From an uncultured Methanobrevibacter sp. (GTDB lineage: Archaea; Methanobacteriota; Methanobacteria; Methanobacteriales; Methanobacteriaceae), in contig NZ_CACYJE010000003.1 of NCBI RefSeq assembly GCF_902774605.1, positions 1-64,000 on the forward strand: a DNA stretch of 64,000 bases, in the 5' to 3' direction. Below are positions 4,159 through 8,277 of the stretch, one piece after another (within the stretch, counting starts at the first letter, position 1; the number at the start of each line of letters is the position of its first letter). Both the position numbers and the translations under genes were made by a program. A model generated the notes under the pieces. It made no database searches and was not told where the DNA came from. It saw only the letters and a program-made list of their open reading frames with translations.

Positions 4159-5256
4159 CTAGTCTTTAATAGCGTCTAAAGCTTCTTTCCAAGTAGTTGA
4201 GCTGATAGGTGTGTGGTCAATTTCAGTTCTTTTTACAGTAATTGCACCGTTAGGACATGCGTTAGCACATGCTTTACATTTTACACAGTAGTCGTTGTTT
4301 GCAATTACGTGTTCCATTCTTGAACCAGGACCTGAGGATACAGGGAATGCTAATGCGTTACATCCACAAATATCTACACAAGCTCCACAAGCTTGACATT
4401 TATCGTCGTCGATTTCAATAGAACCTTCGAATGGTTTTTTGTGTTTTGCTGCGTCAGTTGGACATACGCCTTCACACCATCCACAGAATACACATAATTC
4501 TGAGTCGATGACGGAGTTTCCTTTAACGACAGCTTTTGAAGGATCTAAGTCGTATTCACCATAGTTACATGCTCTACAAATCGCTTTGATAGCGTTGGTA
4601 GGACAGGATTTTTTACATACCAGACAGTATACACATGCATCCTTGTCGATAACGATGGATTCTTTTCCGGTTTCTTTGTCTACGACGATTGCTTCTGCAG
4701 GACATAATTCTTCACATACTCCACAGTAGATACATTCATCTTCATCGACGTCGATTTCACCAGTTACTAAGTCAGCACGGTTTGGTAAAATTCTTTCGAT
4801 AACGATTGCATCACGAGGACATGCGATTTCACATCTTTTACAGTAAATACATTCATCATCATCAATTTCTGAGAAAGCGTTGTAATGAGGATATGCGTCG
4901 ATTTCTTTGATCGGTGTTCCGTCAATGGTTAATACTAATGCATCAACTGGACATAATCCGGAGCACATACCACATAATACACATTTACTTTCGTCAATGC
5001 TTATTCTTTGAACATCAAAGTCTTCTTTGAAGTTTTGAGCGATCTTTTCGTGACCACTGAAGTATACGTCGTTTGAGATTCTGTGACGTGCGTCCACAGC
5101 AATTGCGTTTAAGGTAATTGCTTCTACAGGACAGGTTGATTCACAAATCCCACAACCTAAACATACGTGGTCGTTGAAAGACAAGTTTCTGACTTCTTCA
5201 GCAGCTCTTGTGATGTCAAAGTTGTTGTCTTGAACCTCTTTTAAATTTCTAATCAT
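4159..5256 (-). CDS. fwdF: Polyferredoxin FwdF with eight [4Fe-4S] motifs
   Basis: Electron-wire subunit of the formylmethanofuran dehydrogenase complex, which links the Fwd cores with heterodisulfide reductase and hydrogenase. I count eight CX2CX2CX3C-type motifs across 365 residues, for example CLGCGICESTCP, CVLCGMCSGLCP, CIYCKRCEIACP and CVKCKACANACP, as expected for FwdF. The start is ATG 5256, seven bases after GGAG; the upstream TTG is too close to that site. It overlaps the end of the upstream HTH-ferredoxin gene by 8 bases, which suggests coupled translation. Confidence 0.95.
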   Translation of the reverse strand: MIRNLKEVQDNNFDITRAAEEVRNLSFNDHVCLGCGICESTCPVEAITLNAIAVDARHRISNDVYFSGHEKIAQNFKEDFDVQRISIDESKCVLCGMCSGLCPVDALVLTIDGTPIKEIDAYPHYNAFSEIDDDECIYCKRCEIACPRDAIVIERILPNRADLVTGEIDVDEDECIYCGVCEELCPAEAIVVDKETGKESIVIDKDACVYCLVCKKSCPTNAIKAICRACNYGEYDLDPSKAVVKGNSVIDSELCVFCGWCEGVCPTDAAKHKKPFEGSIEIDDDKCQACGACVDICGCNALAFPVSSGPGSRMEHVIANNDYCVKCKACANACPNGAITVKRTEIDHTPISSTTWKEALDAIKD

Positions 5257-5707
5257 ATTCAATCTCCAAAATTTTTATAGAATTAGTTGGGCAATCCTCG
5301 CTACATAGCTGGCAACCGCAACATTGTATGGAGTCTGCATGCGCTTGCAATGATTCCAACTTAATGGCTTTCATCGTGCATGCATTTACACATAAGCCGC
5401 AACCAATACAGGAATCTTCTATAATTACTTCGAAATTTCTTTCTCTGCAAATATTCACAATTTTTCGACTCTGTTCTGGTTCGTCAAATATTGCCTCGGC
5501 CATTTTCAAGAAATCCTGGGGGCACAGTTCGATTATTGTTCTTGCAACGTCGATTGAGTTCCAAGAAAGGTTTCTGCCATTCAGGTAGTGTGAGATGGTA
5601 GACCTGTCGACTCCGAGCTCGTCAGCAATTGCTTGGTGACTTTTACCAGCATCCTTCAACTTGACCGCAGCCAAATATTTTAGACCAGATGCAATATGTT
5701 TTGGCAT
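5249..5707 (-). CDS. fwdH: HTH-ferredoxin fusion protein leading the fwd operon (FwdH-like)
   Basis: A 152-residue protein with two visible parts. Residues about 21-44 form a classic helix-turn-helix (SHQAIADELGVDRSTISHY). Residues 100-139 carry two [4Fe-4S] motifs, C100/C103/C106/C110 and C129/C132/C135/C139. ATG 5707 is chosen because GGTGG lies five bases upstream. Its place at the head of the operon matches the fwdH slot of other Methanobacteriales, where the product is described as a ferredoxin-like protein of unclear function. The HTH suggests, as inference, a DNA-binding sensor of iron-sulfur or redox state that could act on its own promoter. The symbol rests on position; the domains are seen directly. 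Confidence 0.75.
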   Translation of the reverse strand: MPKHIASGLKYLAAVKLKDAGKSHQAIADELGVDRSTISHYLNGRNLSWNSIDVARTIIELCPQDFLKMAEAIFDEPEQSRKIVNICRERNFEVIIEDSCIGCGLCVNACTMKAIKLESLQAHADSIQCCGCQLCSEDCPTNSIKILEIEYD

Positions 5708-5743
5708 TTGAACCACCATGTGTAATGATATTAAATATATTTA

Positions 5744-5753: not shown

Positions 5754-5794
5754 TATAGTTGCCTACTAAAATCAAATAGAAAGTCTTATATATT

Positions 5795-5814
5795 AGTGTG
5801 GTAGAACTACACAT
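5795..5814. promoter_or_regulatory. Degenerate copy of the 19-bp palindrome near the fwd promoter
   Basis: Reads AGTGTGGTAGAACTACACAT. The right half CTACACAT is identical to that of the two perfect palindromes at 6043 and 6233; the left half is shifted and imperfect. It sits about 40 bases upstream of the fwd TATA box, a place suited to an activator or auxiliary operator. Binding is inferred from similarity only. Confidence 0.45.
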
Positions 5815-6025
5815 ATTGACTTGACAATACCAATCATCATGAGCCCAAATAAGATATTAAATAAGCATGAAAGCTTATCTGCTATGAAAATAAATATCAG
5901 TATGTTTTGTTAGAAATACGATGATTTAAATAGTAATCTTATGAAATAAATGAGAAAATTCAACGAAATTAGTAATAAAAAATTATCAAAAAAGTATTAC
6001 GAAATCAGGAAAAATTATAGAAAAT

Positions 6026-6043
6026 TTTTAGGTTAGCCTAAAA
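6026..6043. promoter_or_regulatory. DtxR/IdeR-like palindrome (metal-dependent repressor box)
   Basis: TTTTAGGTTAGCCTAAAA has perfect 7-base arms around TTAG. Its core TTAGGTTAGCCTAA (6028-6041) equals the first 14 bases of the classical 19-bp DtxR consensus. It abuts the palindrome at 6043-6061. DtxR-family regulators occur in methanogens, and the fwd operon encodes at least twelve [4Fe-4S] clusters, so iron control would make sense. It lies more than 200 bases from either annotated promoter, and no DtxR gene is in the window. Confidence 0.45.
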
Positions 6044-6061
6044 TGTGTAGTAACTACACAT
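6043..6061. promoter_or_regulatory. 19-bp perfect palindrome, copy 1
   Basis: ATGTGTAGTAACTACACAT: 8-base perfect arms around TAA. An identical copy lies exactly 190 bases further on. Its location between two divergent Mo/W operons suggests an operator for a shared regulator; candidates are the FwdH-like HTH protein or the ModE/LysR-like protein at 14507. The partner is inferred. Confidence 0.6.
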
Positions 6062-6232
6062 CAAATTTTGAAAAAACCATCAAAATTGAGAAAGGCCCAA
6101 AAAAGGGAATTATCATCAATTTTTCATGCATCATCAGGATTGTTGCAACTTCCAGGGATTCACCATAAATTCATCGATTTCCATATTTCCCAAGGGACGG
6201 AACATGTAAGAAAAACACTACATTCCATGAAA

Positions 6233-6251
6233 ATGTGTAGTAACTACACAT
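6233..6251. promoter_or_regulatory. 19-bp perfect palindrome, copy 2, upstream of mobB
   Basis: Identical to the 19 bases at 6043-6061. It lies about 10 bases before an AT-rich TATA-like stretch (GATATAATTAA, 6262-6272) and 58 bases before the mobB start, so a bound protein would touch the mobB-moaA promoter. Confidence 0.6.
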
Positions 6252-6308: not shown

Positions 6309-7346
6309 ATGAAAATAGTATCAATAGTTGGCAAGAAAAATACAGGAAAGACTTCACTGACCGTGAAGGTCATTGAAGAGCTGACAAGAAGAGGCTACAA
6401 CGTCGCCTCAATAAAGCATTCCCACCACTCAATAGAAATGGACAAGGAAAACACAGACACCTGGAAGCACAAGCAGGCAGGTGCAAACCTCGTGGTGGGC
6501 GTTGGATCAACCACATTCTTCAATGCCCGAAGGGAACATGACCTCAACAGGATACTATACCTTCTAAAGCACTTCGACGACTTTGACTTCGTAATAATCG
6601 AAGGCTACAAGAGCTACAACTATCCCAAAATAATAACCTCCCCGAACGTGAAAGACCCGTACACAATAAAGGAAGTGGACTCATTCACTATAGATGAAAG
6701 GGGAGTGAGCGAACTGGCTGACATCATAGAGCAGAAGGGCCATGATATAGTCGACACATTGTTTGCAAACAACTGCGGATACAATGACGGGGAACTGATA
6801 GCCAAGGAAATCCGTAACGGAAACCTGACAGTTGAAGACCTGGACGATGTCAAAAGCTACCTTTCCATTGACGGCAAGGTGGTTGGGCTGAACAGATTTG
6901 TCAGCGACTATCTGAAGCAAAGCGTGACCGGTGTCATCAACACCCTCAACCTCAAGGATTTCGGCGTTGACGAAATAGGAAAGATAGAGCTTGTAATCCC
7001 GAATGAGAAATCCCCTAAAAAACAGACAGATGCCCAATGCAGCATTCTGATCAATGGTGAAAACCTTGAAATCAACCAATTCACAGGAAATATTGTTTCA
7101 AACTCCATAAGGGGAATGGTGAATGCAATCAAGACAGAGGACAATGTCAAAAAAATCGACATTGAAATAACAGGCATCGGCGATGACCTGGCCAGTGCGG
7201 GAATTTGGCTCAAAACCAATGACCATGACGTGGAACTGAATGATTTCACACAGGCGATTCTGAAAGAGACAATATTTGCAACAATAAATACATTAAAGAT
7301 TGACGATAAAATAACTGATATGAAGATACAGGTGAAAGGGGAATAG
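6309..7346 (+). CDS. mobB: MobB-type GTPase with a C-terminal triple-repeat domain
   Basis: Residues 1-160 match MobB, the P-loop adapter for attaching a guanine nucleotide to molybdopterin: [15 protein letters not shown] is the Walker A, and [26 protein letters not shown] follows. The rest (about 184-345) is not part of ordinary MobB, which is about 170 residues. It consists of three similar units of 48-60 residues (184-243, 244-297, 298-345) with the shared pattern N-x-F ... N-[AT]-[IL]-K. I do not recognise this domain. The stop is one base before moaA, so the two are one operon in the pathway feeding Fwd and Fdh. GGGG lies before the ATG. Confidence 0.85.
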
Positions 7347-7347
7347 C

Positions 7348-8277
7348 ATGCTTGAAAACGTTGTTCATGACAAATACGAAAGACCGATTCTTTCACTGAG
7401 AATCACACTGACAAACAGATGTAACGTGAACTGCCTGTACTGTCATCATGATGGAATGGTGAAGTCAAAAGATGAGATGACAGCCGATGAGCTCCATACC
7501 ATCTGCAAGATAGCCAAAAAGATTGGCGTTCGAAAAATCAGACTGTCCGGCGGAGAGCCTTTGCTTAAAAAGGATATTGTTAAGATTGTTGAAAGGATTG
7601 CAAGCCTCGGCTTCAAGGACATTTCAATGACCACCAACGGAATACTGCTTGAAAAGTACGCTCAGGCTTTGAAGGATGCCGGTCTTGACCGTGTCAACGT
7701 CAGCCTGGACACCCTTGACCGTGAGACTTTTGAGTTCATCACCAAGAAGGATTATCTTGAAGACGCCAAAAAGGGAATTTTGAAGGCCGTTGAGGTTGGA
7801 CTCTACCCTGTCAAAATCAACATGGTCATCATGAAGGACATCAACCAGGATGAGATCGATGACATGTTCGAGTTCTGCAAGGAGAATGATATTGTGCTTC
7901 AGCTCATCGAGCTTATTGAAAGCGAGAACTGTGATGATGACAAGTTCAGTGCGGATTACCATTATAAGCTGGATGACATTGAAAAAGAGTTGGCTGATAT
8001 ATCTGATGATGTTCGTGAACGTGAGTTTATGCAGGGGCGTAAGAAATATTACATAGACGGTGGAGAAATCGAGGTAGTCAAGCCTGTTGACAACTCTACC
8101 TTTTGCGCAAATTGCTCCAGATTAAGGATCACACCTGACGGAAAAATCAAGCCATGCCTTCTCAGGAACGACAATCTTGTCGAGCTGATTTCACATGTGA
8201 GAAACGGTGCAAGTGAAGATGAGCTTGAAGAGATTTTCATCAATGGAATCAATAAGAGAGAGCCTTTCAACCAGTAG
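7348..8277 (+). CDS. moaA: GTP 3',8-cyclase, radical SAM (first step of molybdopterin synthesis)
   Basis: Rearranges GTP to 3',8-cyclo-GTP with S-adenosylmethionine chemistry. The radical-SAM cluster ligands are C25, C29 and C32 in [15 protein letters not shown], and the SGGEPLLKK segment follows. The second cluster motif is near the C-terminus ([19 protein letters not shown]). At 309 residues it is typical of archaeal MoaA. It overlaps the mobB ribosome-binding region and pairs functionally with moaC at 52139. Confidence 0.95.

Follow-up and report, generated by a model that had tools for sequence, protein, structure and literature searches.

Bacterial iron-sulfur (Fe-S) regulators of the IscR, SoxR, FNR and WhiB types combine cluster-binding and DNA-binding domains, sense Fe-S or redox state and are often autoregulatory. 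Hydrogenotrophic methanogenesis, the main methane route in Methanobrevibacter of the rumen and gut, begins with the fixation of CO2 by formylmethanofuran dehydrogenase. MsvR, a methanogen-specific redox regulator of Methanothermobacter and Methanosarcina, binds inverted-repeat boxes in the promoter of its own gene and is autorepressing (PMC3729527), the same arrangement as the one proposed here. In Methanothermobacter, MsvR boxes are also found in a divergent intergenic region, as at the present locus, and the boxes overlap BRE/TATA or the start site, similar to the sites described below (PMC3729527). Tfx is linked to fmdECB, the operon of the Mo formylmethanofuran dehydrogenase. Its gene lies beside the operon acted on, and the protein binds near the operon promoter (PMC3087415), a situation like that suggested here for FwdH and fwd. 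The W-Fwd enzyme was reported to be formed constitutively in Methanothermobacter, with no named regulator (PMC3087415), and this leaves little room for strong regulation.

In this study, we analysed the intergenic region between fwdHF..., which reads leftward, and mobB-moaA, which reads rightward, in a stretch of 64,000 nucleotides, hereafter the window. The original prediction was that twin palindromes in this region serve a regulator shared by the two divergent operons. On the strength of sequence comparisons, we propose that FwdH, listed until now as an enzyme subunit, senses Fe-S or redox state and regulates its own operon, fwd, as well as mobB-moaA in this genus.

Palindromes upstream of fwdH

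The 19-bp palindrome ATGTGTAGTAACTACACAT exists in two exact copies, O3 and O4 (Table 1), which are 190 bp apart, as noted earlier. These were the only matches at ≤1 mismatch in the 2.14-Mb genome. At ≤3 mismatches, a single further match was found, with 2 mismatches, approximately 100 bp before hdrA (G000:C3:89585-89603, which is L134:1586-1604). In dinucleotide shuffles, 0.02 matches were expected at ≤3 mismatches, and the observed number was reached in 0 of 100 shuffles. The genome-wide search for the 19-mer gave no scatter of many copies, and beyond the twin copies only the weaker hdrA site appeared. The specific motif was not found before any other Mo/W gene of the genome at ≤3 mismatches, and no operator was found before any fdh gene of the window, so the idea that the 19-mer might also precede such genes was not borne out. 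The motif was nearly private to the fwd locus in its own genome, in 13 further genomes, and in 15 genomes with the core pattern. A Mo/W-wide regulon of the ModE or TunR type was rejected, because the sites were essentially confined to the fwd locus in the own genome and the 13 others searched.

Table 1. Coordinates of the operators, promoter elements and genes at the fwd-mobB locus (window positions)
Feature	Position	Strand	Remarks
Operator O4, ATGTGTAGTAACTACACAT	6233..6251	+	57 bp upstream of mobB start codon; exact match
Operator O3, ATGTGTAGTAACTACACAT	6043..6061	+	-354 relative to fwdH start; exact match
Operator O2, ATGTGTAGTTCTACCACAC on fwdH strand	5796..5814	-	-107, directly upstream of fwdH TATA box
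TATA-box-like element AATATATAAG, fwdH promoter	5785..5794	-	directly after O2; alignment
Operator O1, left half decayed, ATTTAATATCATTACACAT	5718..5736	-	-29, abuts GGTGG ribosome-binding site
fwdH, proposed autoregulator	5249..5707	-	Pfam HTH_3 and Fer4 matches
fwdF, polyferredoxin, second gene of the controlled operon	4159..5262	-	NCBIfam FMH_DH_FwdF, 2.4e-130
mobB with long C-terminal extension, proposed co-regulated	6309..7346	+	Pfam MobB, TIGR00176
moaA, GTP 3',8-cyclase, downstream of mobB	7348..8277	+	TIGR02668 and NF001199 above cut-off
Probable DtxR-type iron box TTTAGGTTAGCCTAAA, palindrome abutting O3	6027..6042	.	recurrence across genomes, copies before feoB

The degenerate copy noted earlier at 5795 corresponds to O2, and the half-site at 5718 corresponds to the decayed O1. 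Judged alone within the window, neither is significant. In relatives, an intact palindrome stands at both positions. O2 has the core TGTGT-N7-ACACA with one mismatch, and the intact O1 of most relatives reads ATGTGTAATCATTACACAT. Operator distances were counted from M5 (window 5707), the conserved FwdH start (MPKHIASG...). The ATG at 5719, which is not the conserved start, overlaps the decayed O1 and is absent in many relatives.

The fwdH upstream regions of approximately 100 genomes of the family and 13 genomes from other families were compared. The consensus ATGTGTA-N5-TACACAT recurred at set distances upstream of fwdH in approximately 110 relatives, with O1 at -29, O2 at -107, and O3 usually present near -354. 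Of the fwdH regions examined, 65 had O3 at -350 to -366 with ≤3 mismatches. Among 64 genomes of 17 genera, ≤1 mismatch over 10 core positions was seen in 86% for O2 and 69% for O1, against 0.2% of random windows. The O2-O1 spacing was 77-80 bp in all 66 genomes with both sites readable, and the O3-O2 spacing was 244-248 bp in 43 of 56 genomes and 250-260 bp in the remainder. Between O3 and O2 the sequence was not conserved and the spacing alone was kept, so a conserved small ORF or RNA in this interval was rejected. Outside the window's family, families f2 and f3, which are probably Methanothermobacter and its kin, have O1 at -28 as ATGTGTGATTAACACACAT or AAGTGTGATTAGCACACAT and O2 at -106. 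The conservation upstream of fwd on which the original prediction was staked was thus found, with O1-O3 at fixed distances. Judged by sequence, the palindromes are genuine regulatory sites that have been conserved.

The 190-bp distance between O3 and O4 is real, at 189-191 bp in 8 genomes, but only some close relatives have it. The spacings that are conserved widely are those of O2-O1, at 78 bp, and of O3-O2, at about 246 bp. O4, at approximately -545, is an extra site in some same-genus genomes, the window's included. The mobB-proximal operator lies near -76 from the mobB ATG in most same-genus genomes, and in most same-genus relatives, which are without the 190-bp insert, this site is O3. 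O1 was decayed in all 10 genomes with O4 and intact in 36 of the 44 without it; independent pairs on the fwdH tree were too few for the association of O4 gain with O1 loss to be significant. The alternation of O4 and O1 architectures among close relatives possibly reflects cassette recombination. In genus g9, a tandem pair at -387/-411 replaces O3. In genera with mobB elsewhere or co-directional, the sites remain with fwdH, which indicates that fwd is the core target. O3 is present even where mobB is not adjacent, a point against the scheme proposed below.

Some relatives carry inserts in this region. Four genomes (G043, G057, G075 and G088) have an additional site upstream of a stretch that lies between this outer operator and O3, and in G043 and G088 the stretch contains a polyferredoxin gene. 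At loci L139 and L076, a FwdF-like polyferredoxin gene in the direction of fwdH was observed between the outer operator and O3, accompanied in L076 by a small ferredoxin ORF. In G043 and G057, a polyferredoxin insert separates O3 from O4, and we considered whether the 190-bp unit is what is left of such an insert. This was rejected, as the blastn similarity did not extend beyond the operators and a few adjacent bases.

FwdH as the candidate reader

fwdH is the first gene of the fwd operon. It encodes a Cro/C1-type helix-turn-helix (HTH) domain (residues about 1-50), a helical linker, and a 2[4Fe-4S] ferredoxin domain (about 91-150), and these features bear out the earlier view that the protein is worth testing. 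HTH_3 (PF01381) was matched in 46 of 47 FwdH N-terminal domains (best E 3.8e-10), with the window member above the gathering score, and the AlphaFold2 model has a pLDDT of 93. The recognition segment RSTxSHYLNGxN is nearly invariant across FwdH, and the linker is variable. PHROGs matches of the N-terminal half were mostly phage repressors and other HTH proteins. In PDB sequence searches, FwdH matched only generic ferredoxin domains (FwdF, FwdG and others), and its HTH part matched HTH proteins only and no Fwd chain. Foldseek returned only ferredoxin domains for the full-length protein and HTH matches, each individually weak, for the HTH domain alone. A Pfam scan gave HTH and Fer4-type families only, with no V4R sensor domain.

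The closest named relatives of the window's FwdH are Methanobrevibacter records, and the genome is Methanobrevibacter-like. FwdH is present in every member of the class with fwd, and a related palindrome lies beside fwdH in nearly every genome with fwdH. In genus g12, which appears to be Methanosphaera-like, 20 genomes have neither FwdH nor a motif match, and FwdF too is missing from those complete g12 genomes that were tested. A further 12 same-genus genomes, mostly incomplete assemblies, have neither FwdH nor an orthologous FwdF. Since FwdH is never lost without the fwd operon, nor the operon without FwdH, patterns of co-occurrence do not distinguish FwdH from a different regulator of fwd. 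Residue 34 of FwdH tracks positions 7/13 of the O1 operator, with D accompanying A/T and N accompanying G/C; this correlation comes mostly from one clade and has exceptions (L104 and L271). FwdH is favoured as the reader because the motif is locus-private and local regulators are usually encoded nearby. We believe that the palindromes, with the core TGTGTA-N5-TACACA, probably serve as operators for a dimeric transcription regulator specific to the locus, and that this regulator is most likely FwdH itself. In the literature searched, mostly non-subscription papers, no work was found on FwdH as a regulator or on the 19-mer motif. A metal-, pterin- or redox-responsive signal had been predicted. 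With a 2[4Fe-4S] ferredoxin as the sensor domain, the signal is more likely to be Fe-S- or redox-related than a metal oxyanion or pterin.

The palindromes could instead be operators of a different, unlinked regulator of fwd and mobB-moaA, metal-, pterin- or redox-responsive and ModE-, Tfx-, TunR- or MsvR-like, which we regard as unlikely. Such a factor would suit the W/Mo-pterin dependence common to both operons, and archaeal genomes encode many HTH proteins; however, the other Mo/W genes of the genome and the fdh genes of the window are without sites, and where mobB has changed position the sites have stayed with fwdH. The related fmd operon has a known regulator linked to Mo/W, Tfx (PMC3087415), and the presence/absence data suit any factor lost with fwd, but the palindrome is unlike the MsvR box TTCGTA-N4-TACGAA. 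Of the predicted shared regulator of the divergent operons, the shared sites and their conservation before fwd stood, but the Mo/W-wide regulon did not, the sites being nearly confined to the locus.

It is very improbable that the sites act as RNA, with palindromes of the 5' leader forming hairpins that control translation or termination. O1 does lie next to the ribosome-binding site, within what is presumed to be the 5' leader, and hairpin formation by a perfect palindrome is feasible. The motif is also found outside the leader, however, upstream of the TATA box (O2) and the mobB promoter (O3/O4); one arm of O1 is lost in the window genome; and no family was matched in an Rfam search, on which ground a known RNA element was rejected. 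Chance or a mobile-element duplication without regulatory function is scarcely credible, for although the 190-bp O3-O4 unit is lineage-specific and its spacer sequence drifts, the sites are conserved at fixed positions in 17 genera from several families, far more than random windows are.

Sites before hdrA and a probable iron box beside O3

HdrA is part of the enzyme from which Fwd obtains its reduced ferredoxin. A site related to the motif, with the sequence ATGTGTATTTACTACATAT or one like it, lies before hdrA in 28 of 29 same-genus loci, at one of two alternative positions (-118 or -73), and also in genus g3. The copy of the window genome is weaker than the O3/O4 motif. The related site is absent in 9 readable g12 loci, which have hdrA without FwdH, and in most other genera examined. 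Its presence in the same-genus loci and its absence from the g12 loci count for FwdH as the reader. We tentatively suggest, with more doubt than confidence, that FwdH founds a family of ferredoxin-HTH regulators that would read low-potential ferredoxin or the Fe-S state and, via the operator, couple the opening step of methanogenesis, through fwd, with pterin cofactor synthesis, through mobB-moaA, and partly with hdrA in the class Methanobacteria.

Other repeats were observed in these searches. A different palindrome, TTGTTAAATTTTTAATAGTTAACAA or close variants, lies before hdrA in several g12 genomes without FwdH (L313-L322). The hdrA leader region of several genera (e.g., L283 and L328-L330) has an inverted repeat TATCTAA...TTAGATA. 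An identical TGTGTATGAGACACACA was found in three f3 genomes (G143:C1:360045, G148:C1:1643784 and G150:C1:320266) and may be a further regulator target or a coding match. On the fwd side of O3, at 5972-6000, an inverted repeat GTAATAC...TATTAC is kept in many same-genus genomes.

The palindrome that abuts O3 is kept beside it in many relatives. Its pattern TTTAGG-N4-CCTAAA gave 140 exact matches against 11 control matches in 12 genomes. The exact box occurs 15 times in the window's genome, and paired boxes approximately 70 bp apart precede feoB in G000 and G043. It is probably a DtxR-type iron box, resembling the DtxR/IdeR/MntR boxes in sequence, with copies that recur before feoB. On this reading, iron supply probably also bears on the intergenic region. 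The box is distinct from the 19-mer beside it and probably serves a regulon of its own across the genome.

Proposed mechanism and comparison with known systems

A TATA-like sequence follows O2 within 12 nt in 63 of 64 genomes, and O1 runs into the GGTG ribosome-binding site. Transcription generally starts approximately 25 bp past the TATA box, and O1 would then lie approximately 30 bp downstream of the presumed fwdH transcription start. O3 and O4 are just upstream of the A/T-rich mobB promoter.

We infer the binding, the sign of regulation and the signal as follows. FwdH dimers would bind O2 and O1, bridging or blocking them, over BRE/TATA and the early transcribed region. Bound FwdH would exclude TBP/TFB or RNA polymerase, and fwd would thereby be kept in a negative feedback loop. 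Activation from O2, instead of repression, is possible. In the window's genus, FwdH at O3/O4 would adjust mobB-moaA. The signal, the least certain step, may be the state of the two [4Fe-4S] clusters, that is, iron-sulfur supply or ferredoxin redox state, which would set the affinity. In this way, the synthesis of an Fe-S-rich, ferredoxin-using W/Mo enzyme could be matched to supply. A separate iron regulator of the DtxR type probably acts at the box beside O3.

With a class-wide operator and a candidate sensor in the same operon, the control of fwd is directly testable. FwdH, called a subunit, would gain a function, and the scheme suggests how the large Fe-S load of methanogens could be kept in step with the supply of iron and ferredoxin.

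The target of Tfx is the Mo isoenzyme, and no ferredoxin domain is described for Tfx in PMC3087415. In the literature searched, we found no Tfx site comparable to the 19-mer palindrome. MsvR senses through a cysteine-containing V4R domain and its box is TTCGTA-N4-TACGAA, whereas FwdH carries a ferredoxin domain and the sites here read TGTGTA-N5-TACACA. Unlike the case of MsvR, the target here is a core methanogenesis operon. The folds also differ from those of IscR, SoxR, FNR and WhiB: FwdH is an archaeal protein in which a Cro/C1 HTH is joined to a 2[4Fe-4S] ferredoxin domain of bacterial type.
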